A program made the position numbers and the translations under genes. Of a stretch of 64,000 bases of DNA, positions 3,384-34,256 are shown piece by piece (positions within the stretch are counted from its first letter, which is position 1; each line of letters opens with the position of its first letter). Below the pieces are notes generated by a model that saw only the letters and a program-made list of their open reading frames with translations, was not told the origin of the DNA and did not search any database. The stretch covers positions 372,001-436,000 of the forward strand of contig JADZAS010000013.1 of NCBI GenBank assembly GCA_020852515.1, in the 5' to 3' direction. Origin of the DNA: Phycisphaerales bacterium (GTDB lineage: Bacteria; Planctomycetota; Phycisphaerae; Phycisphaerales; UBA5793).

Positions 3384-5720
3384 TTACGGTGATGGCGCGT
3401 TGCGCACGAGGATGTTGCGGCCTTCGTAGCGGAGCATGATGTCGCCGTCGAGCGAGAGCACGCCCTGGCGATTCTGGGTGATGAGCGCCTGCAGGATGGT
3501 GATGTGCTCGGGGCTGCCGAACTGCACGGTTTCGTCAGGCGTGATGGGCTCGCCGGGAGTTTCGCTGGGCGTGATGAGTTGCGAGTCGATCCAGCAGCCG
3601 TCGCGCTTGAAGAAGGCGCGGTCGCAGACCTGCTGCACGGCGGAGATTTCGACGCGATTGAGTTTGTCATCCACGTACCGGTTCTGGTAGTTCAGTTTGG
3701 CCTGGAGTTTCTGCTCGTTGAAGTTGACGCCCTGGTTGACGGCGCTCTGGCCCCAGCGCTGCTGGACGGCGCGCGTGTCGAGGTTCGTGTTGCAGTTGGC
3801 CTGAAGGTTGTTCCAGTCAGAGAGATCGGTGCCCTCGGTGGCGAGGAACGCGGTGTACTCGGTGAGGATGCCGAACTCGGTGGACAGGCGCAGGATCTCC
3901 TCGGCCAGCTCGCGGTAGCGCGGGTCTTCAAAAACCGGCGTGTTGTTGGTGATGCTGCCGACCGAGGCGGCGCCGGCCTGGCGAATCTGATCGACGAGAT
4001 AGGCGATGCGCCGGCTGGCCCACAGCCGCGGCACAAACGCGTTGCGGGTCGTGGCGCTGCCCAGGTCGAACTCGAACTCGAAGGTCTTCTGCTCGCCGAG
4101 GAAATCGCCCGTCAGGCGGAAGTGCAGCGGCGAAGCGTCGGCATCGGGCCGGCGGTACTGGCCGAGCACGATGAGTTGATCGCCGTCGAACAGATCCGGC
4201 AGCGCGGAAGGAATGAGTTCGCGCACTGCGGCGCCGGTGGTCACCTGGCCCTGATCGCCAATCGTGTCCAGACTCGCGTTGGCAAGGACCGGGCCGGACA
4301 GACGGCGGAAGGTCTGCGCGACCTTCAGTTCGACGTCTTCATCCGGCTGCACGTAGACCGACACGGCGCGCGTGGCGTCGGAAAGGCGATCGAGCAGGGG
4401 GACGTTGACGTCGTTGCCCACGCCGAAGGTGAAGATGCGCCGATGCTGGTGGTTGCCCTTGTCGGCCAGGGCGCGGATGTCGACCTCTGAAGTCTGGCCG
4501 ACCGTCGGCAGGCCATCGGTGAGGAAGAGCACGAGAGGCAGGCGGCCTTCGGTCGATTCGTGCGTCTTGAGCGCTTCGACGAGGGCGTCGTGGATGTTGG
4601 TCCCGCCGCCGGCGCGCATCATGTCGAGGTAGACGCGGGCGGCGGCGGCGCTCTTGCTGTTCTTCTCGACGGGTTGATTCGAGAAGAGCGAGACGGTCGT
4701 TGAGAAGTCGATGATGTTGAACGCTTCGCCATCTTCGAGGCCTTCGAGCACCTGAAGGGCTGCGGCCTTGGCCTGGTCCATCTTGGGCCCGGCCATGGAG
4801 CCGCTGCGGTCGATGACGAGCGTAACCTCGCGCTTGATGCCGGGGCGCTGGTCTTTCGATTCGCCGGGCAGGCCGGCGACGAGCAGGAAGTAGCCGCCTT
4901 CGATCTTGGGATCGGGATAGGCGTAGAGCGAAGCGGTGACGCCCTGCTGCTCGCGCAGGTAGGAGAGGCGAAACGAGCCGGGGTCCATCACGCTGCCGGG
5001 CGCGATGCTGGCCTTGAGGTGATTCGGCGAGATGCGCTTGGTGTCGAGCGTGTGGCTGGGTGAATAGACCATTGAGATCGGCGGCCGGGACTGCATGTCA
5101 ACCTGCACGTTCCACGGATGCCGGCGGTCGAGCGATTCGCTTCGGGGCAGGATGTAATCGACGCGCGGGCCGTCGACGGGGAGCAGGTGCTCGTAGGTGA
5201 GACGGACCTTTTGCGTGCCTCCGGCGGGAACGGGAAAGACGCTCGAGCGGACGAGGTTGTAGCCGGCGAATTCGAGCAGCGCGGGGTCGCGGACTCTTGC
5301 GACGATGGCGTCGTAGAGGCGGCGGGCTTCATCGCGGCGCATGACCTGGGCGGTGGGCTCGGCGGACGCGCCCTCAAAGAGGAACGAGCCGACGACCGCG
5401 CCGTCGGGCACCGGCAGCAGCAGCACCGCTTCGGCCTGGGCCGATGACGCGTTGCGGAGCGACACTTCAAGGGTGGTCGTCGCGGTCGAATCGAGGATGC
5501 GGACCTGCGCATCGACCTTGTCGATGAGGATCGGGTCGCCTTGGCGAGTGACGTTGAAACTGCGGGCCTGGGGTACGACGACCTGCGTCGCGCTGCCGAG
5601 GTTGGAGCGGATGATGATCTCGATCTGCTGGTCCTGGGCGGCGGCCGGGCCGGCGAGGAGACCGAGGAGGGTGAGGAGGGTGGTTATCAGGCGTGGTCGT
5701 CGCGATTGCTGGCTGAGCAT
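3384..5720 (-). CDS. Secreted VIT plus VWA domain protein
   Basis: The product is 778 aa from the ATG at 5720-5718, chosen because AAGGAG lies about 9 bases upstream and a clear signal peptide (about 1-29, ending AAAQ) follows; the frame extends 25 codons further without these signs. A VIT (vault/inter-alpha-trypsin) domain occupies about 60-190 and a VWA domain about 298-470 with the metal site DRSGS at 304-308. The C-terminal part is unassigned. VIT-VWA proteins are common in planctomycetes and are thought to mediate extracellular protein contacts. It is the first gene of a two-gene VWA unit. Confidence 0.88.
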   Translation of the reverse strand: MLSQQSRRPRLITTLLTLLGLLAGPAAAQDQQIEIIIRSNLGSATQVVVPQARSFNVTRQGDPILIDKVDAQVRILDSTATTTLEVSLRNASSAQAEAVLLLPVPDGAVVGSFLFEGASAEPTAQVMRRDEARRLYDAIVARVRDPALLEFAGYNLVRSSVFPVPAGGTQKVRLTYEHLLPVDGPRVDYILPRSESLDRRHPWNVQVDMQSRPPISMVYSPSHTLDTKRISPNHLKASIAPGSVMDPGSFRLSYLREQQGVTASLYAYPDPKIEGGYFLLVAGLPGESKDQRPGIKREVTLVIDRSGSMAGPKMDQAKAAALQVLEGLEDGEAFNIIDFSTTVSLFSNQPVEKNSKSAAAARVYLDMMRAGGGTNIHDALVEALKTHESTEGRLPLVLFLTDGLPTVGQTSEVDIRALADKGNHQHRRIFTFGVGNDVNVPLLDRLSDATRAVSVYVQPDEDVELKVAQTFRRLSGPVLANASLDTIGDQGQVTTGAAVRELIPSALPDLFDGDQLIVLGQYRRPDADASPLHFRLTGDFLGEQKTFEFEFDLGSATTRNAFVPRLWASRRIAYLVDQIRQAGAASVGSITNNTPVFEDPRYRELAEEILRLSTEFGILTEYTAFLATEGTDLSDWNNLQANCNTNLDTRAVQQRWGQSAVNQGVNFNEQKLQAKLNYQNRYVDDKLNRVEISAVQQVCDRAFFKRDGCWIDSQLITPSETPGEPITPDETVQFGSPEHITILQALITQNRQGVLSLDGDIMLRYEGRNILVRNAPSP

Positions 5721-17594: not shown

Positions 17595-18401
17595 TTACGG
17601 GAGCTGAGCAACGTTGCTCGTGGTGCACGGGCTGGCGTCCACGACGACCAGCTGGATGTAGCCGCGGCAGGCGGCGGTGCCGGCCTGGCCGTTGACCTGG
17701 CCGCTACCGCTGCCGGTGTTGACCTGGTTGACCAACTGGAGCTGCTGGGTGCCGAGGCCGAGCTGGGTGCCGGCACACGGGCCGCCGGGGATCACATAGG
17801 CGCCGGTGTTCTGGGCGAAGACGATGCCCATGGGCTTGTTGGGCGTCGCGCCGCTCCAGGCGACGGTGATCGTGCCGGGGCACTGGCCGCGGAGGGTGAG
17901 GCCCAGGCCGCCGAGCGTGCTGTAGGTGCGGAAGGTGTAGTCGAAGCCGGGGAACGAGCCGTAGCCCGGGTTGGCGTAGACCTGGCCGTAGGGATAGCCG
18001 TTGGCGATGTCGCCGGAGATGCCAAGGGTCTGATTGCCGGTGAAGCGCAGGTAGTAGGTCGTGTTGGCGTTGATGGCGACTGGGGCCCAAGACACGTCGA
18101 CCCAGTTGCCCGAGGTGCCCTGAGCCGAACCGGTGGCGAGCATCTGGCCGCCGCCGTTGGGCAGGGTCGTCCAGAGTTCGATGGTCACGTTGTCCGTGCC
18201 GCCAATGCCGGCCTGCAGGAAGATGCCGGCGCCGCAGATGCTGTTGGCGACCTGGTGCTGGAACGACTGGGCCAGATCGCCCTGCGAGAACGCGGCCATG
18301 TAGGCGTTGTTGGTCGAGGCGTTCTGATCGATGTTGCACTGCGCGTTGGCGACGCCACAGGTGGCTGCGAGAAGCGCAGCAGACAGCAGAATCTTCTTCA
18401 T
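17595..18401 (-). CDS. Secreted protein with conserved four-Cys C-terminal domain
   Basis: The product is 268 aa with AAGGAG ahead of the ATG and a signal peptide (about 1-20, ending ANAQ). Residues about 25-165 are a beta-rich, jelly-roll-like region (QSFQHQVANSICGAGIF, TYYLRFTGN) resembling carbohydrate-binding or choice-of-anchor beta-sandwiches, which is a guess. The last ~95 residues are the shared domain: Cys in GQCPG, GPCAGT, AACRGY and CTTSN, ending VAQLP. It has its own promoter and terminator. This copy and 16362-17348 are the most alike of the six C-termini. Confidence 0.85.
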   Translation of the reverse strand: MKKILLSAALLAATCGVANAQCNIDQNASTNNAYMAAFSQGDLAQSFQHQVANSICGAGIFLQAGIGGTDNVTIELWTTLPNGGGQMLATGSAQGTSGNWVDVSWAPVAINANTTYYLRFTGNQTLGISGDIANGYPYGQVYANPGYGSFPGFDYTFRTYSTLGGLGLTLRGQCPGTITVAWSGATPNKPMGIVFAQNTGAYVIPGGPCAGTQLGLGTQQLQLVNQVNTGSGSGQVNGQAGTAACRGYIQLVVVDASPCTTSNVAQLP

Positions 18402-20195: not shown

Positions 20196-21944
20196 TTACG
20201 GAATGGTCGCGTAGTTGCTGGTGTCGCAGGCGGGAATGTCGTGCATCTGCAGGTAGTCGCCGCACGCCTGGGTGTTGCCCGAGACGGATCGATTGCCCGT
20301 ACCGGAACTGAACGTGTTGATCAACTGGATGTTCTGGCTGCCCAGGCCGAGGTAGGTCCCTTGGCAGGGGCCGAAAGGAATCTCGAAGTTGCCGAGGTTG
20401 CGGGCGAAGACGAGCGCCAGCGTGACGTTCGGCCGCGCGTTGGACCAGGTTACGGTGATGCGCCCGGGGCACGTGCCGGTGATGGACAGGTCGAAGTGGT
20501 CCACTTCGCAGTAGGTCAGGTCGTCCATCGTCCAGTTGTTGAGCGGCGAGACGAACTCGATCTCATCGACGCGGAACTCGTACCCGGCATCGATCCAGCG
20601 CGGCACGCCGTCGCCGTTCATGTTCAGCGTCGCCGTGGTCGCCACCACCACGCCGGCGCGCTTGAGGCGCATGGTCACTTCCGTACCCGTGGCGCCGGAG
20701 AACCAGGCGCCTTCGACGCGCACATCGCGGCCGAAGTGGAGGCTGCCCGTCGTCCCGGTGGTGGCATAGGCCCGCTGCGCTGGCGACTTGGGCGTGTAGG
20801 GATCCTGCTGCGATTCGTAGTGGCGCCAGTTCGTCCAGGTCGCGACTCCGCCGTAACCGTTCGAGACGGTGCCGCTGCCCGCGAGATTGTCGAAACTGAC
20901 GACGGTGCAGGTTTCGCAGTAGACGAGATTGTCCATCACGAAGAACCCCAGGTCCCCGTCAAACTCGACGGCGTCAACTTCGCCGTTGTAGCCGGTGGAT
21001 CGATACTGGGGAATGCCGCTGCCGTCGGTTGTAACTGAAGCGCTCGTGTGGACGAGGCCGCCGTTGCGATACAGCCGGAAGCGGATAGGCGCGTGTCCTG
21101 ATGGGCCGGAGAACCAGGCGCCCTGCACGATCACGGGACGGCCGAAGGAGAAGCGCGATGACTGACCCTGAGGAACGTAGACGCGCTGCGTGGGCGATTT
21201 GGCGGTGTACGGGGACTGCGGCGTCTCGTAGAAGCGCCAGGCACCCCAGTCGGCGACGCCTCCGGTCCCCGCGGACACGATGCCCGAGCCGGTGAGTTCG
21301 TCAAAGTCGGCCGAGGTGCAGTCAGGCCGGGTGAAGCGGAAGTTGGGCCCGTACCGGTCGAAGGTGGTGGATTGCGTGGGCATACGGAAGCCGCCGGAGT
21401 TGGCTTCAAAGCGGCCGTCGCCGACGTGGGTGATGAGCGGATCGAAGATGTCCTCGCCGAACGCATCGACGACGATGCCGTCGGTGTTCGAGACCGCGGA
21501 GTAATAGCCGATGGTGTAGTTCGTGCCCGCGGTGAGACGGCCGGACGCGCGGACCCAGCGGTAGTGATTGCTCAGTTCGGAACCCGTGCCCGCGGGCAGG
21601 GTCGCATCAGCGATGAGCAATTGATCACTGGTGCGCCAGATGCCGATGCGGTGCTCGATGTCCATGCCATCGTCATCGCGATCCCACACGCCCAGGTGCG
21701 TGACGACGATGTTCTCTGCCGGAACGAACTGCCAGCCGTGCATCGAGTCGGCGGCGGGTGTGCTGTCGTTGCCATGATTGAACATCGTCATGGCATCGGT
21801 GTAGTAGCCGAGCATGGGCGCGGCGTCGGGTGTCGCCAGCGGCGGGCCTCCGTTGCGGCCCGGCGCCGCCACCTCGCCGCTCTGGCCCAATGCCCCGGAA
21901 CAAAACATGGACAACGCCACAGACAGCGCCAGTGCACTTTTCAT
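20196..21944 (-). CDS. Secreted repeat protein with conserved four-Cys C-terminal domain
   Basis: The product is 582 aa from ATG 21944-21942 (GAGGAG upstream), with a signal peptide (about 1-20). Residues about 40-200 form one beta-rich unit. Two tandem homologous units of about 135 residues follow, each with a W-x-W-R-x-YE core, SPYTAKSPTQR/DPYTPKSPAQR, GAWFSG and MDxLxYCE. The shared C-terminal domain has Cys in GTCPG, GPCQGT, QACGDY and CDTSN, ending ATIP. A TTGACA-type promoter precedes it and a terminator follows. Likely cell-surface or extracellular; ligand unknown. Confidence 0.85.
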   Translation of the reverse strand: MKSALALSVALSMFCSGALGQSGEVAAPGRNGGPPLATPDAAPMLGYYTDAMTMFNHGNDSTPAADSMHGWQFVPAENIVVTHLGVWDRDDDGMDIEHRIGIWRTSDQLLIADATLPAGTGSELSNHYRWVRASGRLTAGTNYTIGYYSAVSNTDGIVVDAFGEDIFDPLITHVGDGRFEANSGGFRMPTQSTTFDRYGPNFRFTRPDCTSADFDELTGSGIVSAGTGGVADWGAWRFYETPQSPYTAKSPTQRVYVPQGQSSRFSFGRPVIVQGAWFSGPSGHAPIRFRLYRNGGLVHTSASVTTDGSGIPQYRSTGYNGEVDAVEFDGDLGFFVMDNLVYCETCTVVSFDNLAGSGTVSNGYGGVATWTNWRHYESQQDPYTPKSPAQRAYATTGTTGSLHFGRDVRVEGAWFSGATGTEVTMRLKRAGVVVATTATLNMNGDGVPRWIDAGYEFRVDEIEFVSPLNNWTMDDLTYCEVDHFDLSITGTCPGRITVTWSNARPNVTLALVFARNLGNFEIPFGPCQGTYLGLGSQNIQLINTFSSGTGNRSVSGNTQACGDYLQMHDIPACDTSNYATIP

Positions 21945-22016
21945 TGCTCTCTCCTCTTGTTGGTTTGGTTCGGTGCCCCCGCGCGCCACGCGCAGAAGGG
22001 CGGTTTGCCACGTCCG

Positions 22017-22157: not shown

Positions 22158-23951
22158 TCAGCGGATCTGGAGCACGTTGCTCGTGCCGCAGTCGCCCAGG
22201 CCGATGGCCTGAAGGTACTTGCCGCAGGCGCCGCTGTCGGCGCTGCCCTGCACGTTGGCGATGCCCGATGCGTTGAAGCGCAGCACCGTGAGGCGCCGCG
22301 CGGTGTTGTCGAGACCCAGCATCGTGCCGGCGCACGGCGCGCCGTTGGGGATGCGCGCGCCGCCTGTCGACTCGGCAAAGAGCAGCGCTGCGCGCGAGCC
22401 CGGCGAGCCGTTGGAGATCGCCACCGTCACCTGCGCCGGACACCCGCCCACGAGCGACAATTGCAATCCCGATAGAGCAGCGCCGTGGCGGAGGATCTGC
22501 ACGGTGTCATCGAGTTCATCGATGAGCCCGAGATCGAGATCACCGTCGTTGTCGGCGTCGAACATGACCGAGCAGGATGCGGCGCTGGTGGCCGCGAACT
22601 CGCGAAGGAACGAGAACTGTCCCGCGCCGTCATTGATGAACAGGCTCCAGTCGCCGCTGAAACTCGCGTTGATCCAGTCAAGATCGCCGTCGCCATCGAG
22701 GTCGCCGAGATCGGTCGCCAGTGGGAATTCGTCGGTGACATAGCTGGTCGCCGGGGCGAGGTTGCCCGCGCCGTCACCCAGCAGCGCGACTCCGGCGCCA
22801 GGCGAGAAGGCGTTCACGCCGACGACATCGGCGTTTCCATCGCCGTTGAGATCGCCCAGCGCGACCATCCACGTGTAGCCGCCGCTCGAACGCGACGAGG
22901 CAAGCGTGAACGTGCCGTCGCCGTTGCCGGCGAGGACGACGATGAGGGTTGAGTTGACGGTGCTGGCGACGAGATCGAGTATGCCGTCGCTGTTCATGTC
23001 CGCCGCGGCCAGGCCGTATTCGCCGGACCCGCCGCCCTCGAAGAACTGAGGCGGATTGAACGTGCCGTCGCCGCGATTGATGAGCGTGGAGAGATTGCTG
23101 CTGCTCGAGTTGGTGTTGACGATGTCCATGTGGCCGTCGCCATTGGCGTCAACGACCGCTATGCCGCGCGGCGCGCTGCCCACGTTGTACTGCGTCTGCG
23201 GCTGGAACGTGCCGTCGCCGCGCCCCAGCAGCACTGAGATCGTGTTCGTGTTGATGTTGGCCACGCACACATCGGCGAAGCCGTCGTGATTGAAGTCGGC
23301 GGGCTCGTTGGGGCTCGCGCGGCGGTTGACGGGGTACGGCCCGCTGAAGTTGTCGAACTGGCAGTTGCCTTCGGCCCTGTTGATGAAGACGCGCAGGTCG
23401 GCCGAGTCTTCGTTCACCGTGGTGAGATCGAGAAACCGGTCGCCGTTCAGATCCGTCGCCAGTGCGCCATAGGCGCGCGTGCGCGCGTTCGGATTGGTGC
23501 GCGTGCTCAGCGTCTGCACCGGCTCGAATCCGAGGCCGGCCGGCTGGGCCCGCGTCCAGAACAGGTGCGAGTAACCTGCAGCGCGCAACGCATCGCCGGA
23601 CACGCCGCGGATATCGTGCGAGAGGATCACCATCACCGTCTCGCCGGCTGAAAACGGCTGATCGGGCGTAAGCGTCACGACCCGATCCTGATCCGAGTAC
23701 GAGAACGATCCCGAAGCGGTGCCGCTCCAGCGCCCGAACGCCCAGAAGGACGCCGCGGTGATCGTGCTCCGATCGACAGGCTGATCGAATGTGACGCTGA
23801 TGCTGGCATCAACCGGCGCGCTGAGCGAATTCGACGCGGGCGCGATGTTGATGACGCTGATGTTCTGGGCCTCAGCGGCCTGGCCGCACAGCGCCAGCGC
23901 GGCGGCGGCGAGAATCCCCCGGCAGTTGATGACAGCGATCCTGCGAATCAT
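22158..23951 (-). CDS. Secreted FG-GAP/VCBS-repeat protein with Ig-like domain and four-Cys C-terminal domain
   Basis: The product is 597 aa from ATG 23951-23949 (GGAGGAG upstream), with a signal peptide (about 1-29, ending AEAQ). Residues about 30-135 form a bacterial Ig-like domain (SVTFDQPVDRSTI). About seven repeats of the FG-GAP/VCBS type follow, each with calcium-binding-like loops such as DLNGDRFLD, DFNHDGFAD, DANGDGHMD and DLDGDGDLD, which should fold as a beta-propeller. The shared C-terminal domain has Cys in GGCPA, APCAGT, GACGKY and CGTSN, ending in VLQIR. Probably an extracellular adhesion protein. Confidence 0.87.
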   Translation of the reverse strand: MIRRIAVINCRGILAAAALALCGQAAEAQNISVINIAPASNSLSAPVDASISVTFDQPVDRSTITAASFWAFGRWSGTASGSFSYSDQDRVVTLTPDQPFSAGETVMVILSHDIRGVSGDALRAAGYSHLFWTRAQPAGLGFEPVQTLSTRTNPNARTRAYGALATDLNGDRFLDLTTVNEDSADLRVFINRAEGNCQFDNFSGPYPVNRRASPNEPADFNHDGFADVCVANINTNTISVLLGRGDGTFQPQTQYNVGSAPRGIAVVDANGDGHMDIVNTNSSSSNLSTLINRGDGTFNPPQFFEGGGSGEYGLAAADMNSDGILDLVASTVNSTLIVVLAGNGDGTFTLASSRSSGGYTWMVALGDLNGDGNADVVGVNAFSPGAGVALLGDGAGNLAPATSYVTDEFPLATDLGDLDGDGDLDWINASFSGDWSLFINDGAGQFSFLREFAATSAASCSVMFDADNDGDLDLGLIDELDDTVQILRHGAALSGLQLSLVGGCPAQVTVAISNGSPGSRAALLFAESTGGARIPNGAPCAGTMLGLDNTARRLTVLRFNASGIANVQGSADSGACGKYLQAIGLGDCGTSNVLQIR

Positions 23952-24144
23952 GGGCTCTCCTCCAGAGGTTCGGGATCGGAACAGTCCACACGTTGTGAAC
24001 ATGCCCAACCGCCGCCGGGTTGCAGGTATTCCTGAGAACGCGGCGGCGCGCAGGTCGGGACGGTACCGTGCAGGCCCGGCGCGATCAATCTCTGGCTTGA
24101 TGACGGCACGGGCGGTACGATGGTGCATCCCAGGGAGGTGCCTG

Positions 24145-25185
24145 ATGCGCGCAACCGTGCTCTTTGGCGTCTTACTTCTACTTCTCTGTTCTGCCGCCGT
24201 GCCGGCTCAGGACGCCCGGATTGATCCGGTGCAGCAGCAACTCGATGCGCTGCTCGCCGAACACGAGGCGTCTGAACTCGCATACCCCGAGGCTTACCGC
24301 GCCTTCCTGCCGCGCTTCGAGAAGTTCATCGAAGAGCATCGCGGCACCGAACCCGAAGCCCGCGCGACGCTCTGGCTCATTCAGCAGACGTGGTGGCTGC
24401 GGGAGGGCAACAGCATGGAGAAGGTCAACGAGGCCGCCATGCCGCTGGCCGAAGACCTGATCAAGCGTCATCCCAAGTCGCCGCAACTCGACCTGCTCGT
24501 CGAGTACAAGTACAACTTCAGCAAGGAGCAGCGCGAGACGCTGTTCAACCGGCTGCTGGAGGTCTCTCCGCATTCGCAGGTGAAGGCTGCGGCGCACTTC
24601 GGCCTGGCGCAAGGCTCGCCGGCGCGCAACGAAGACGGCTCGCCGAATGAGCACTTTGCGCTGCTCACGACCGAGTTCGCCAAGGTGAAGTGGCGCGAGA
24701 CCACCTACGGCGCCATCGCCGAGGCGTACCTCAACCCGCTCTCCCCGGCCGACCTTGCGCCCGGCAAGCCCGCGCCGGAGATCGAAGGCATCGACCACAA
24801 CGGCAAGCCGATGAAGCTGTCCGACTACCGCGGGAAGGTGGTGCTGCTCGACTTCTGGGGGGACTGGTGAGGCCCCTGCCGGGCCATGTACCCACACGAG
24901 CGGTCGCTCGTGCAGAAGTATGAGAACAAGCCGTTTGCCATCGTCGGCGTCAACAGCGACCCGACGCTCGAATTCCTGCGCACCGTGATGAAGGAGAAGG
25001 ATCTCACCTGGCCCTCGTTCTTCGACGGCGGCGGTACGGGCGGACCGATCGCCACGCGCTGGGGCGTGCGCGGCTGGCCGACCGTCTACCTCATCGATCA
25101 CAACGGCATCATCGCCGAGGGTGATCGCGGGAATCTCGATGAAGCAATCGAACGGCTCGTGAAGGCCGCTTCGCCGGCGAAGTAG
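24145..25185 (+). CDS. TlpA-like thioredoxin-fold protein, probable selenoprotein (UGA at codon 242)
   Basis: ATG 24145 is preceded by GGGAGG. The frame runs to TGA 24868-24870 and continues intact in the same frame to TAG 25185: 346 aa if the TGA is read as Sec242. Residues 1-22 are a signal peptide, about 23-195 a helical domain, and about 200-346 a redoxin/TlpA domain (APEIEGIDHNGKPMKLSDYRG). The active site reads W-[UGA]-GPC where the family has W-C-GPC, and the cis-Pro motif GWPTVYLID is intact. A hairpin with a GGUC loop lies 24 nt downstream, as expected for a bacterial SECIS. An extracytoplasmic thiol/selenol reductase is likely. The alternative is a nonsense mutation (TGC to TGA), but the downstream part shows no decay. 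Confidence 0.82.
24868..24912 (+). promoter_or_regulatory. UGA codon plus putative bacterial SECIS hairpin
   Basis: TGA is at 24868-24870. A 5-bp GC stem follows at once (24871-24875 with 24881-24885). Then CACGAGC (24895-24901) pairs perfectly with GCTCGTG (24906-24912) around the loop GGTC. E. coli fdhF SECIS is known to present a GGUC apical loop to SelB. Here 31 nt separate the UGA from the loop, within the spacing I recall for bacterial SECIS elements. The bulged U of the E. coli element is not seen. Confidence 0.65.
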
Positions 25186-26287: not shown

Positions 26288-27808
26288 CTATTCGATGAGG
26301 ATGACATTCGACGTCGCGCAGGTCGAAAAGTCGATCGCCTGGAGGTGGATGCGTCCGCAGTACTTTGGATCGACGCGATGCCGGATCGTGGCAAATCCAC
26401 TCTGATCGGCCGATCCGTACGAAACCACTCGAACGGATTCGTCGAGGCACAGAATCGTGCCGCTACATGGTTGATTGGGGGGCACCTGAAAGTTCCCCCG
26501 ACCGAAGGCCACGACAATCGCACCCTGAGCTCCGGGAGTGGCTCCGGTCACTCGGAGGTGTACCGTCTCAGAGCAGGAACCGCGTTGCCATAACGCCAAT
26601 CGATGATCTTGGGTGTCAAACACGTACGCGGAGCCGGAGTTGCGGCCGCTGTTGTCGTCATACAGGGCGCCGACGACGGCAATCGACTGATTGATTCCGA
26701 CTGCGTAGCCGAAGTAATCATACTCGTTGCTATCCGGCGCAAGCAACTTTTCAAGCTGCTGGCCCGAAGACACATCGAAGACGTAAACGGCACCGGAATT
26801 GCTGCCCCGCTCGTCACGCCCGAAGGCGCCAACGACGGCGAGCTCGTTATCGATTGCAACCGTCCAGCCGAACATGTCGTAGGCTGCTCCATCCGTTGCG
26901 CGCAACTTGCCGACTTCCTCCCCACTCAGAGTGTCGAAGAGGTAGGCGACTCCCGAGTCTGCCAAGTTCTCATCATGCAGATGTGCGCCGATGATCGCTC
27001 TGTTACCCGATATTCCAGCAGACACTCCAAACCAGTCCCCTTCTGCATTGTCACTCGGAACAAGTTTGGCCACTTCGACGGGAGCGGCAGGATCGGCCAC
27101 GTCGAACAAGTATGCTGACCCTGAACCGGAACCGTTGACATCGGCAAGATACGCGCCGACAACTACTCTCGTCGTGCTGATCGCGACACTGCGACCAAAG
27201 TAATCTCCTTCCTGCCCATCACTCGACAGCAACTTCGCGGTCTGCTCACCCGAACGCACATCGAAGAGGTAGGCCGCACCAGAGTTCGGCCCATTGCTGC
27301 TGTGGGCGATGGCACCAATGACGAGCAAGTCGCCGCTGACCGCCACCGCACTGCCGAACCGCTCTCCTTCTTCACGATGATTTGGGAGCAACTTGTACAT
27401 CTCTGCGCCGGTCGATGCATCGAAGATGTACACCGCTCCACTGTCGTTATCGCAACCTGGCGCGCCGATCACTGCGACATTCCCATGGATCGCTACCGAC
27501 GAACCAAAAGCGTCACCCGATCGGCCGTCGCTCGCGAGGAGTTTGACTCGCTCCTCACCCGTCAGCGCGTCAAACAGATATGCCGACCCCGCTTGAGGAC
27601 CATTCTCGTCGTCCTCATACGCCCCGACGACCGTGAGTTGTCCGGAAACGCCCACCGCCCGTCCAAACAGATCTCCGGCGGATCCGTCGCCCGGCAGCAG
27701 TCGCAGCAAGAACGGAGGATCACATTGGGCGTGTGCATTGATCGTAGTCAGACTAGATGCAACTATGATCCCGATCCGCAACGCGTCCGTTATGCGCTTT
27801 GCTACCAT
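26288..27808 (-). CDS. Secreted FG-GAP-repeat protein with divergent four-Cys C-terminal domain
   Basis: The product is 506 aa from ATG 27808-27806 (GGAGAG upstream); the longer frame to 27958 is a low-complexity Arg-Val tract from a tandem DNA repeat and was excluded. The signal peptide is about 1-27 (NAHAQ). Seven repeats of about 50-60 residues follow, each with a G-D-x-FG-x-V-A core, VVGAY/VIGA and SAYLFD or AVYIFD, the FG-GAP integrin-type propeller pattern. The C-terminus keeps the four Cys of the shared domain (GSCSE, QPCSGT, KYCGRI, CATSN) but ends VILIE. The gene's G+C looks lower than its neighbours. Confidence 0.83.
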   Translation of the reverse strand: MVAKRITDALRIGIIVASSLTTINAHAQCDPPFLLRLLPGDGSAGDLFGRAVGVSGQLTVVGAYEDDENGPQAGSAYLFDALTGEERVKLLASDGRSGDAFGSSVAIHGNVAVIGAPGCDNDSGAVYIFDASTGAEMYKLLPNHREEGERFGSAVAVSGDLLVIGAIAHSSNGPNSGAAYLFDVRSGEQTAKLLSSDGQEGDYFGRSVAISTTRVVVGAYLADVNGSGSGSAYLFDVADPAAPVEVAKLVPSDNAEGDWFGVSAGISGNRAIIGAHLHDENLADSGVAYLFDTLSGEEVGKLRATDGAAYDMFGWTVAIDNELAVVGAFGRDERGSNSGAVYVFDVSSGQQLEKLLAPDSNEYDYFGYAVGINQSIAVVGALYDDNSGRNSGSAYVFDTQDHRLALWQRGSCSETVHLRVTGATPGAQGAIVVAFGRGNFQVPPNQPCSGTILCLDESVRVVSYGSADQSGFATIRHRVDPKYCGRIHLQAIDFSTCATSNVILIE

Positions 27809-27891
27809 AACTCTCTCCGCTGTCTGCGCCGTTTCTCTGACGGATGTTGTGACCGAACTCAGCAAATGCTGACTCGCTCCAGGCAGACTCT

Positions 27892-27943
27892 GAACCCGTC
27901 GAACACGTCGAACACGTCGAACACGTCGAACACGTCGAACACG
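27892..27943. repeat. Tandem repeat of a 9-bp unit
   Basis: The unit GAACACGTC is repeated about 5.8 times head to tail (first unit GAACCCGTC). It lies 84 bp upstream of the 27808 start codon, in the promoter region of that gene. Confidence 0.9.
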
Positions 27944-28035
27944 AATCCGCCCATACAACCTCCGCTTTTACTGAAGTATTCCCTCATCGTCGCGCATGGA
28001 GCACCGGAGAAGGACCTGCGAACGTTTGCACAGGG

Positions 28036-30892: not shown

Positions 30893-31343
30893 TGCCAGCC
30901 GAGGCGCGGCGTGAAAACGCCGATTGAACCCGCCTCAGGACACGAATCCGATCGATCCAGGGATGATCGGAACATGACAACCAGATGCGCCGAATCGGCC
31001 GGCCGGCCCGCCACCTTTTGTGCGCGCGACATGGGCAACGCCCGCGCTGACCTACGGTCAACCCTGCCTGACGACATTGAACGCTCGATTTTATAAGACC
31101 CTTGCTCGCAACGGCGCTCGCGCAGCCGGCGGTTATCAGTCACTGCCGCCCTCCGGCGCAAATGCGAGACGGTGCAGATCGTGCCGGTCAGCGAAACTGC
31201 CCCGATGATGCCGGCGCGAGCGATGAGGAAAGACCGGCGAGCTGGACATGCGGCTTGATCCTCTACTTACCCAATCGGACACTCTTCAAGGCGGTATCGT
31301 GCCGATATGCGGCAGGTCCGCGCGCACTATCGAGGAGTGGGTC
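30893..31343. other. Intergenic leader before the EPS gene array
   Basis: This 451-bp gap holds no supported gene. It contains a nested hairpin at 30901-30936. No clear -35/-10 pair was found, so a promoter for the array is expected here but not located. A ribosome site (GAGGAG) stands just before the 31344 start. Confidence 0.5.
30901..30936 (+). other. Nested hairpin downstream of the NusG-like gene
   Basis: GAGGCG (30901-30906) pairs with CGCCTC (30931-30936), enclosing CGGCGT-GAAA-ACGCCG (30907-30922) with a GNRA tetraloop. There is no T-run, so it is not a standard terminator. It could be a recognition or pause element for the antiterminator encoded just upstream. Confidence 0.5.
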
Positions 31344-34256
31344 ATGATGAATTGCCGAATCGCCGTCAACACGCTGGCCGGATCGTTCAATCGACGCATG
31401 TATGCCGCGGGCGGCCTGCTGGCGGCTGCCCTGCTCGTGCTCCTCGCGCCTGCTTTGCTGGCGATGCAGGCCGCCGGCGATGACCTCAAACTCCGCGCTG
31501 CCAAGGAGCCGGCGATCATCGACCTGCACCTGCGCGAGCAGGACATCCTCTCGCGCAACGCAGCGCCGCTCGAAGCCGCCGGCAACGCGGCCATCGAACG
31601 CATCGCCGCGGCTGGACAGTCCAATCCGGGCCGGCTCGTGGCCATCCGCCTCACCGGCGCCGGCCTCAGCCTCAGCGACGCCCAGTACAGGCAGGCCCTC
31701 ACGACCGGCGGTCCGGAAGAAGCCCAGCGCGTCGCGGCGGCATACGAACAGACGCTCGGCCAGTACCTCGAAGCCTTGCTCGACGCGATTCGCACGACCG
31801 ATGACAAGGTCTCACTCAGCGTGCTCGGCCTGCCGCTCGAATCGCGGCGCAGCCTCGACCCCAAGGCGGCCAACCGCAACTACAAGGGGGTGCTCGATCG
31901 CGTCGATGCGTTCGTCGCCGCCAAGAGCATTGTTCTCTCAGGCGGCACGGTGACCGAACGCATCGCCCTGCGCGACGGCCTGCCCAGCAGCCTGGCCCTG
32001 CGAGACGGCCGGCCGGTGCTCTACCGCGCCAACGGCTCGTGGCGCATCGCGCTCAACTCAGAGGCCCTCGCCGACCAGCCGCTGCGGACCATGGACGCCG
32101 ACCAGGCGCAGGCCGCGGCCCAGGCGGGCGAAACGACCGAGGCGTCCGAGGGCGGCCTGATCGTCGTCGACGACGAAAGCGCAATGGAGGGCGACCCCTT
32201 CGCCGAGCCCATCGAGGATGACGTGTGGGCGGAAGAAGGCGAGGATGACCTGACCCTCCTCGCCTCAGCGACCGAAGGTGGCACGAGCGGCTCGAGCACC
32301 TCATCCGACGCCCACTTCAAGTTCCACACCGGCGACAACACCCCCATCGGCCGGCGCCGCAGCAGCGGCGGCGGAGGCGGCGGTAGCGGCGGCGGCTCGT
32401 TCGTCGTCGGTGGTGGCGGCGGTGGCGGTGGCGGCGGTGGCGGCGGAGGAGGCGGCGGTGGCGGAGCCGGCGGCCTGGAAGGTGAAGGCGGCTCCGAAGG
32501 CGGCTCAGGCGGCGGCGGCAACTCCGGAGGCGGCAACTCCGGAGGCAACAACTCCGGCGGAGGCAACTCCGGCGGCAACCAGGGCAACCAAGGCACCGAA
32601 CCCTGGAACTCCTGGAACCACCTCCACGACTTCACCGGCCTGCCCATGACCGAAGACGGCTGGACTGACCTCCTGGCCATGTACCAGCACCCGCTCTACT
32701 ACAAAGACAGCCGCATCATCTACGTGTCAAGCTCCGACGGCAACGACGCCACGGCAGTCTACTACACCCCGGAGGCCCCCATCGTCGGCCCCGACCCGTT
32801 CAACCCCGTCGGCCCCCTCCAGCCGTTCAAGACCCTGGCTGCAGCGTACAACCAGCTGCGCGATGGTTACCCGGACATGATGCTGCTGAAGCGCGGGGAT
32901 GTGTGGGAGGAACAGATACCAACGTGGCAGATTTCTGGCCGCTCGCCATTGGAACCGATGATCGTTTACACATACGGTCCATTGGACACCGACCGTCCCA
33001 CTGTCGGTGCGTTCCGGACACGCTATGGCCCCACTCATCCGCAGTACGCCTTCAACCATATCGTGCTGGCAGGCTTGCACATCAACGCGCCGAGCGGTAT
33101 TGGGAGGGAGATTGGAGGAAACGGGTGGCTCATCGAAGATCTCTTCCTGCCGGAACATACCAATACTGGCATGTCAATCCAGGGTGTCGGTTCGATCCCG
33201 CTGCAGAATGTGGCCATCCGCCGCTGCGTGGTTGCCGATCGCTACGCGATTCCGGGAAGCGGCCATGTGCAGGGTGTCTTCGTGTCGGCGACTCACGGCC
33301 TGCTTGTCGAAGAGAATATTTTTGACCATAACGGCTGGCACGAGACGATTCCCAGCGGCGCCGCCACCATTCATAATCATAACGCCTACATTCAGCACAC
33401 TTGCTCGGATGTCGTCTTTCGCAAAAACATCTCAGCCCGATCATCCTCTCACGGCGTGCATCAACGGCCGGGTGGGCTGATGGAGGACAACCTCTTCCTG
33501 CAAAACCCCATCGTCCAGATGGGCTACAGTCACAGTGCCAATGCCAATGGGCCATGGAGCGGCATTGTGCGGCACAACGTGATTCTGGACTCACGAGACA
33601 TTGACGACAGTCCGCGAGGGTTCGGATTGTGGCTTGAGACTCTCAAGGGCGCTGAGATCTATGGCAACGTCGTGGCACATCAGCGGACGGGCACTTCCAA
33701 TATTCGGGCAATCGTCTATGGCCACACGAGCCCAGAACTCCACCATGCTGAAGACATTACCATTCGCGACAACGTTGTGTATCGCTGGGAGCGCGGCGGC
33801 TACGGCGCAGGCGAGGGGATTCGGATTTACAAAGATGATGCCCCAATCCTGAACTTCGTCATCACCGGCAACATCATCCGCCAATTCGCCGGCTCCGTGA
33901 TTCATGTGCCCACCGATCCTGGGTCACTCAGCGAAATTGCGGTCAGCAATAACAGGTATTTCGCAGAGAACTCCTCTGTTTTCGCTCCAGGCTCGACATT
34001 CATCGGTTGGGTTGCTGCCACGGGAGACAGCGGATCAGTCTTTTCAGAACCGTCTTTTCCTGATCCCGAGCGTGACATTGAGGCTTACATGTCCTCGATT
34101 GGCCGCCCGGCCGAGAGTTACGAAGCAGCTCTTACTGCATTTCTCGCCGAAGCCGCCAAGCAGCGACGCGGCTTCTGGAGAGCGGAATTCACTTCCCGTG
34201 CGGTCAATGCCTTCATCCGCGAGGGGTTCGGATTGCCTGCCGTGCCCGCGAATTAG
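31344..34256 (+). CDS. Large secreted right-handed beta-helix protein with poly-Gly linker
   Basis: The product is 970 aa from ATG 31344 (GAGGAG upstream). The N-terminus is a signal or anchor segment (about 20-42, LLAAALLVLLAPALL). Residues about 45-230 are helical, then an acidic stretch and a roughly 100-residue Gly/Ser/Asn tract including about 20 Gly in a row. The C-terminal half (about 440-900) is a right-handed parallel beta-helix (pectate-lyase-like, with many IRRCVV, VFRKNI, IRDNVVY and FVITGNII rungs). Such proteins often cut or epimerise polysaccharides. As first gene of the EPS array it may process the exported polymer. Catalytic residues not identified. Confidence 0.82.
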   Translation: MMNCRIAVNTLAGSFNRRMYAAGGLLAAALLVLLAPALLAMQAAGDDLKLRAAKEPAIIDLHLREQDILSRNAAPLEAAGNAAIERIAAAGQSNPGRLVAIRLTGAGLSLSDAQYRQALTTGGPEEAQRVAAAYEQTLGQYLEALLDAIRTTDDKVSLSVLGLPLESRRSLDPKAANRNYKGVLDRVDAFVAAKSIVLSGGTVTERIALRDGLPSSLALRDGRPVLYRANGSWRIALNSEALADQPLRTMDADQAQAAAQAGETTEASEGGLIVVDDESAMEGDPFAEPIEDDVWAEEGEDDLTLLASATEGGTSGSSTSSDAHFKFHTGDNTPIGRRRSSGGGGGGSGGGSFVVGGGGGGGGGGGGGGGGGGGAGGLEGEGGSEGGSGGGGNSGGGNSGGNNSGGGNSGGNQGNQGTEPWNSWNHLHDFTGLPMTEDGWTDLLAMYQHPLYYKDSRIIYVSSSDGNDATAVYYTPEAPIVGPDPFNPVGPLQPFKTLAAAYNQLRDGYPDMMLLKRGDVWEEQIPTWQISGRSPLEPMIVYTYGPLDTDRPTVGAFRTRYGPTHPQYAFNHIVLAGLHINAPSGIGREIGGNGWLIEDLFLPEHTNTGMSIQGVGSIPLQNVAIRRCVVADRYAIPGSGHVQGVFVSATHGLLVEENIFDHNGWHETIPSGAATIHNHNAYIQHTCSDVVFRKNISARSSSHGVHQRPGGLMEDNLFLQNPIVQMGYSHSANANGPWSGIVRHNVILDSRDIDDSPRGFGLWLETLKGAEIYGNVVAHQRTGTSNIRAIVYGHTSPELHHAEDITIRDNVVYRWERGGYGAGEGIRIYKDDAPILNFVITGNIIRQFAGSVIHVPTDPGSLSEIAVSNNRYFAENSSVFAPGSTFIGWVAATGDSGSVFSEPSFPDPERDIEAYMSSIGRPAESYEAALTAFLAEAAKQRRGFWRAEFTSRAVNAFIREGFGLPAVPAN

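Follow-up and report, generated by a model that had tools for sequence, protein, structure and literature searches.

Does an in-frame TGA at the catalytic codon of a redoxin-like gene from a Phycisphaerales bacterium end translation, or does it specify selenocysteine (Sec)? The gene lies on the plus strand of the 64,000-nucleotide stretch of DNA analysed here (the window). Automated gene callers would probably split genes of this kind at the TGA.

A TGA codon at the redoxin active site

Translation of the locus gave a frame of 346 residues plus a final TAG, with a single internal stop, the TGA at codon 242. The surrounding sequence reads DFWGDW, the stop and then GPCRAMYPHERSLV, the TGA standing at the first Cys place of a W-C-G-P-C motif. 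The first-pass annotation had described one frame broken only by this TGA, with the second Cys, the cis-Pro and the rest of the fold intact behind it. The translation agrees with that description, its coordinates are right, and both Cys245 and the cis-Pro region (GWPT, P312) are present. Judged by the criterion that the domain of a bacterial selenoprotein runs on past the in-frame UGA, the gene behaves as one, with an AhpC-TSA match at residues 206-324 that spans residue 242. The coordinates of all features are collected in Table 1.

Table 1. Features of the predicted selenoprotein gene and of related loci in the source genome.
Feature	Position	Strand	Basis or remark
Shine-Dalgarno-like GGAGGTG, putative	24134-24140	+	just 5' of the ATG; read from the sequence
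Predicted selenoprotein gene, ResA/TlpA-like redoxin	24145-25185	+	346 residues if TGA 24868-24870 is Sec
Hydrophobic N-terminal segment, likely signal peptide (MRATVLFGVLLLLLCSAAVPA)	24145-24207	+	sequence; helix 3-17 in the model, low confidence
Helical N-terminal domain	24208-24744	+	helices between 28 and 196 in the model; no Pfam match
Thioredoxin-fold domain (AhpC-TSA/Redoxin)	24751-25170	+	Pfam; closest solved folds ResA, DsbE-like
UGA codon, predicted selenocysteine 242 (W-U-G-P-C)	24868-24870	+	TGA in 6/6 family genomes; Cys in many relatives
Putative bacterial SECIS hairpin CACGAGC-GGTC-GCTCGTG	24895-24912	+	7-bp stem; loop GGUC 31 nt after the UGA
W-U-PPC paralogue of the source genome (L026)	C5:144928-145344		
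Redoxin-like selenoprotein candidate, HIFASW-U-QGCR, hydrophobic leader	C16:97139 (L016, TGA at 5140)	-	near selA-selB-selD-selC
Four-Cys C-terminal domain, about 100 residues	ends of 17595-18401, 20196-21989, 22158-23993, 26288-27958	-	four window proteins, Cys invariant

A scan of the window for read-through TGA genes, based on codon-position GC, returned 15 candidates, and by eye a redoxin active site was recognised only in this one. The neighbours on either side are encoded on the opposite strand, an FG-GAP/Big_5 protein upstream and a DJ-1/PfpI protein downstream, and are not redox partners of the usual kind. At gathering score, Rfam found one tRNA only in the window, which ARAGORN assigned as tRNA-Thr. 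Elsewhere in the window, a frame of 1002 residues (31248-34256, plus strand) contains a long glycine/serine-rich middle stretch, and a short tandem repeat near 27880-27958 reads (VRR)n on the minus and (NTS)n on the plus strand.

Orthologues carrying TGA at the same codon were detected in all six genomes of the family, the source genome included, at 64-100% identity. The orthologue in genome G001 reads W-U-DPC, and that in G003 is split over two contigs. Three of the six genomes also encode a paralogue with W-TGA-PPC (W-U-PPC) at 49-52% identity. Among named records, the nearest relatives come from metagenome-assembled genomes, which carry the labels Planctomycetota (KLAP200, PNC21), Phycisphaerales (UBA5793) and Vicinamibacteraceae (PLA1). 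The Vicinamibacteraceae label of WYBR01, isolate PLA1 (L050, L051), looks wrong; this genome lies in the genus of the window.

A Cys codon (TGC or TGT) could also have become a stop through decay of the gene or through a sequencing error, in which case only fragments would be made. The TGA is indeed one base away from either Cys codon, and the remaining frame is intact. However, five other genomes carry the same TGA, one of them of another genus at 64% identity, the codons after the TGA are conserved, and the stop is kept at the catalytic codon in genomes that have selB and selD, unlike what decay would produce. A read error at codon 242 in particular is very unlikely because the TGA recurs in those five genomes, and we consider a pseudogene or error explanation highly improbable. 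Conservation at the nucleotide level was also scored: where the residues are identical, 44/53 codons match at +1 to +15 after the UGA, versus 593/931 in the rest of the gene. Windows of 12 codons after the UGA reach 0.93, the gene maximum, yet values of 0.91 and 0.92 occur ten codons before and about 65 codons after the UGA.

Outside the family, six genomes matched in a search of the order (201 genomes, E up to 1e-25); none of these matches has an internal stop, and all are confined to the redoxin domain. A search of the class (397 genomes, E up to 1e-24, five candidates scored per genome) gave a match in at least 52 genomes. Among the matches listed, relatives that cover most of the N-terminal domain occur both with TGA (for example L075, L080, L082, L088) and with Cys (for example L077, L079, L083, L085). 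The motif could be located in 51 loci among the matches listed, the window gene included, and codon 242 is TGA in 14 and TGC or TGT in 37 of them. This set was drawn from 59 loci; L057, L061, L081, L087, L090, L039 and L045 yielded no motif, and L037 was left out as a spurious match. Homologues thus carry either residue, which is the Cys/Sec exchange that the first-pass annotation had named as a check on its reading. In a tree of 61 redoxin domains, computed with the codon itself left out, the distribution of Sec and Cys needs four changes, and well-supported branches require at least three of them. The window protein belongs to a clade (support 99/99) of 15 Sec and 8 Cys rows.

Selenium machinery and the putative SECIS hairpin

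The source genome possesses the complete set of selA, selB, selC and selD that the first-pass annotation had suggested looking for. On contig C16, which is not the contig of the window, selD, selB and selA adjoin and are followed by the gene for tRNA-Sec, all within 16 kb. Profile searches scored selA at 531.4 bits (cut-off 267.9), selB at 363.1 bits (cut-off 242.25) and selD at 333.9 bits (cut-off 125). The tRNA-Sec (C16:98647-98742) has the anticodon TCA and scores 68.2 bits (gathering score 47). The selD gene itself contains an in-frame TGA, between NCAG and AGKL (minus strand of L016 at 11274; L016 is G000:C16:92000-108000), and, read from its sequence, is a selenoprotein gene in its own right (NCAG-U-AGKL). 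Its hairpin TTGCACA-GGT-TGTGCAA has a loop that starts 32 nt after the TGA. A selD with one TGA was found in 6/6 family genomes, each time together with the hairpin.

The distribution of selB was compared with that of the two forms of the redoxin. All ten searched genomes with TGA (Sec) forms have selB, as does the source genome, and none of the six order-level genomes with Cys forms has it. At class level, selB is present in 12/12 genomes whose best match has no stop, one of which (G401) also encodes a Sec paralogue. The presence of selB alone therefore does not track the Sec form, and Cys forms persist in genomes that decode Sec.

Several TGA-interrupted redoxin genes in one lineage might also reflect a TGA that is reassigned or leaky, with SelB-independent insertion of Trp, Cys or some other amino acid. 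In the window, though, the stops of 30 long coding-like frames, which were picked by composition alone and may include some shadow frames, are 18 TGA, 6 TAG and 6 TAA, so TGA still works as a stop. Furthermore, the TGA sites that were followed up coincide with the active site in redoxins, in a deiodinase-like protein and in SelD, and a tRNA-Sec(UCA) is present. We regard a reassigned or leaky TGA as very improbable.

Taking together the sel genes, the TGA in all family orthologues and the exchange of Cys and Sec among relatives, we infer that Sec is inserted at codon 242. The UGA very probably codes for selenocysteine in the redoxin active site, and the gene would be a genuine selenoprotein gene from which all 346 residues are made; the claim of a real selenoprotein in the first-pass annotation has held up.

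Downstream of the UGA, a hairpin matches the model of bacterial SECIS elements that PMC13188914 quotes, which specifies a loop of 3-9 nt with a G in the first two places, a stem of 4-16 bp, a distance of 16-37 nt from the UGA and an energy of at most -7.5 kcal/mol. Loop, stem, distance and energy (-11.6 kcal/mol in a 22-nt window) are all in range. The core ACGAGCGGTCGCTCGT is identical in all nine Sec genes of two subfamilies that were fetched from the family. A stem of at least six Watson-Crick pairs with a G in the first two places of a 3-9 nt loop is present in 10/14 Sec rows and 6/6 selD genes, and in 1/37 Cys rows. No hairpin fitting the model was detected in the other four Sec rows (L076, L080, L082, L088), nor at 9/11 further TGA sites. 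The same review (PMC13188914) notes that some bacterial selenoprotein genes do not conform to the SECIS model.

Compared with synonymous shuffles, the excess stability of the window hairpin is weak (z -1.36, p 0.116); it is not significantly above the shuffles because the peptide itself favours a hairpin. A shuffle p below 0.05 was obtained for 2/14 Sec rows, 0/6 selD genes and 0/37 Cys rows, with mean z values of -0.98, -1.04 and 0.15, respectively. When 75-nt segments were folded to minimum energy, the hairpin formed in 5/9 family sequences and was absent from the window's own. The MAFFT alignment misplaced the selD hairpins against the redoxin ones. From its sequence, the hairpin is likely to be the SECIS element of the gene.

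Domain structure and probable function of the protein

With the TGA read as Cys, the protein matches the Pfam families AhpC-TSA (PF00578, 71.5 bits, gathering cut-off 26), Redoxin (PF08534, 65.2 bits, gathering cut-off 26.6) and Thioredoxin_8 (54.7 bits), all within residues 206-332. Scores against the more specific models stay below their cut-offs: 78.7 bits for NCBIfam ResA (NF002854, cut-off 170), 56 for NCBIfam TlpA (NF047696, cut-off 230), 43.9 for DsbE/CcmG (TIGR00385, cut-off 123.15) and 40.3 for NCBIfam WAxxUGC_long (NF041054, cut-off 300; residues 210-324). By these sequence scores, the protein is ResA/TlpA-like but no catalogued member of the NCBIfam ResA, TlpA, DsbE or WAxxUGC families.

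A structure model built from 17 aligned sequences (mean pLDDT 89.6) shows helix 3-17, helices across residues 28-196 and then a thioredoxin fold. The closest solved structures are the DsbE-like protein 3gl3_A (Z 20.8, 34% identity across 134 residues) and ResA 2h1b_C (Z 20.1, 27% identity). The chains of Bacillus ResA (PDB 4nmu, 1st9, 2h1b) and of 3gl3 are 137-147 residues long, cover the model from residue 199 or so onwards and, unlike the window protein, carry Cys. For the N-terminal region (24205-24750), no Pfam family was found at E up to 0.01, and Foldseek with the model named no fold, its match list being filled by the redoxin domain, so that this outcome has no bearing on how novel the N-terminal domain is. 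This domain, for which we found no family name, is about 180 residues long and common to Sec and Cys relatives in the same class. The leader suggests export, and the protein is probably an exported two-domain protein.

Even with Sec in place, the protein could act chiefly as a peroxiredoxin-like peroxidase. The best Pfam match, AhpC-TSA, points in this direction, and Sec peroxiredoxin-like proteins with UxxC are described in PMC1088965. By contrast, the motif W-U-G-P-C resembles that of ResA/TlpA in having a resolving Cys, structural comparison places ResA and DsbE-like proteins closest, and the peroxiredoxin motif PxxxTxxU, as quoted in PMC13188914, is absent from the codon-242 site. Judged by fold and motif, which do not settle the matter by themselves, a mainly peroxidatic role seems rather unlikely, and we favour a thiol-disulfide reductase or isomerase.

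For such an enzyme the following sequence of events can be proposed. SelB would carry Sec-tRNA(UCA) to the UGA, aided by the SECIS hairpin just downstream, and read-through would yield the full-length protein, which the hydrophobic leader would direct to export. The mature protein would then combine the helical N-terminal domain with a ResA/TlpA-type thioredoxin domain whose active site reads W-Sec-Gly-Pro-Cys. Sec242 would use its selenolate to attack an exported client at a disulfide (or sulfenate), with Cys245 then resolving the mixed selenide-sulfide. The protein may in this way serve as a periplasmic thiol-disulfide reductase/isomerase that works fast and is readily reduced.

The literature on UxxC Sec redoxins goes back to 2005-2006 (PMC1088965, PMC1794560). 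Table 1 of PMC13188914 (2026) names the 'Thiol-disulfide isomerase-like', 'Prx-like thiol:disulfide oxidoreductase' and 'Redoxin family' proteins as UxxC selenoproteins. As described in these three sources, UxxC selenoproteins share with the window protein a thioredoxin-like fold, Sec as the first residue of UxxC and the existence of Cys homologues. The window protein may differ from the families of PMC13188914 in the helical domain that precedes its redoxin domain; the table lists those families by their redoxin or thioredoxin domain. The main text of PMC13188914 has no match for either 'Planctomyc' or 'Phycisphaer'. NF041054 (ResA-like WAxxUGC motif-containing protein) models a ResA-like selenoprotein, as the window protein is predicted to be, although the window protein scores below its cut-off; the model is nearer to the W-U-QGC protein of the source genome (G000:C16:97139), which at 69.6 bits is also below 300. 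The planctomycetes P1 and P2 from Porphyra resemble the source genome in having complete Sec-insertion genes and several selenoproteins (PMC4807772). For these two, PMC4807772 discusses formate and formylmethanofuran dehydrogenases, and its S9 Table may list a redoxin. What is new here is a selenoprotein member in an uncultured planctomycete lineage; UxxC Sec redoxins as such were already known.

Further selenoprotein candidates and a four-cysteine protein class

In the source genome, the candidates found are the window gene, its W-U-PPC paralogue, selD and the W-U-QGC redoxin-like protein encoded near the sel genes. The counterpart of the latter in G001 reads W-U-AGC. Two sister genomes contain tandem pairs of W-U-GPC redoxins (L100, L101), and further candidates were seen in sister genomes at L103, L104 and L105. 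G001 also encodes a deiodinase-like candidate (L102 at 9760, SYT-U-PPF, PF00837 with 105.9 bits), followed by the W-U-AGC protein and located close to selD-selB. A search with PF00837 gave a match in this one of the six family genomes and none in the source genome.

Four proteins of the window end in a common domain with four invariant Cys residues. At E up to 1e-6, at least 115 copies were counted in the source genome, where 150 of 185 candidates were scored, and 64 to 142 copies are listed in each of the six family genomes. A stricter search (E up to 1e-12) of 61 genomes of the order detected the domain in six, each belonging to the window's family, and in 0/55 others. We read 27 of the best 28 copies in the source genome, the four window copies included; L121, whose locus is truncated at a contig end, was left out. 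The four Cys are present in each of the 27, with the domain ending 0-3 residues before the stop. Searches of Pfam and NCBIfam assigned it to no family; a single Pfam match at E 0.032 occurred in one of the four members. The leaders seen in the window suggest that the four-Cys proteins are exported, and the domain may serve to sort or anchor exported proteins.

That these proteins are clients of the Sec redoxins is speculation, the two being linked by a single co-occurrence in which both mark one lineage. It is a doubtful proposition that the family has built an exported set of Sec redoxins (the window gene, the W-U-PPC paralogue, the W-U-QGC protein near the sel genes and more in sister genomes) that serves a very large, lineage-specific class of four-Cys proteins. 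If true, many secreted proteins of the family would have their maturation or sorting linked to selenium, and the possible link would make the client testable. The locus adds a well-supported, two-domain and probably exported selenoprotein subfamily in Phycisphaerales-related bacteria, in which the reason for using Sec can be examined directly by comparing related Cys and Sec forms.
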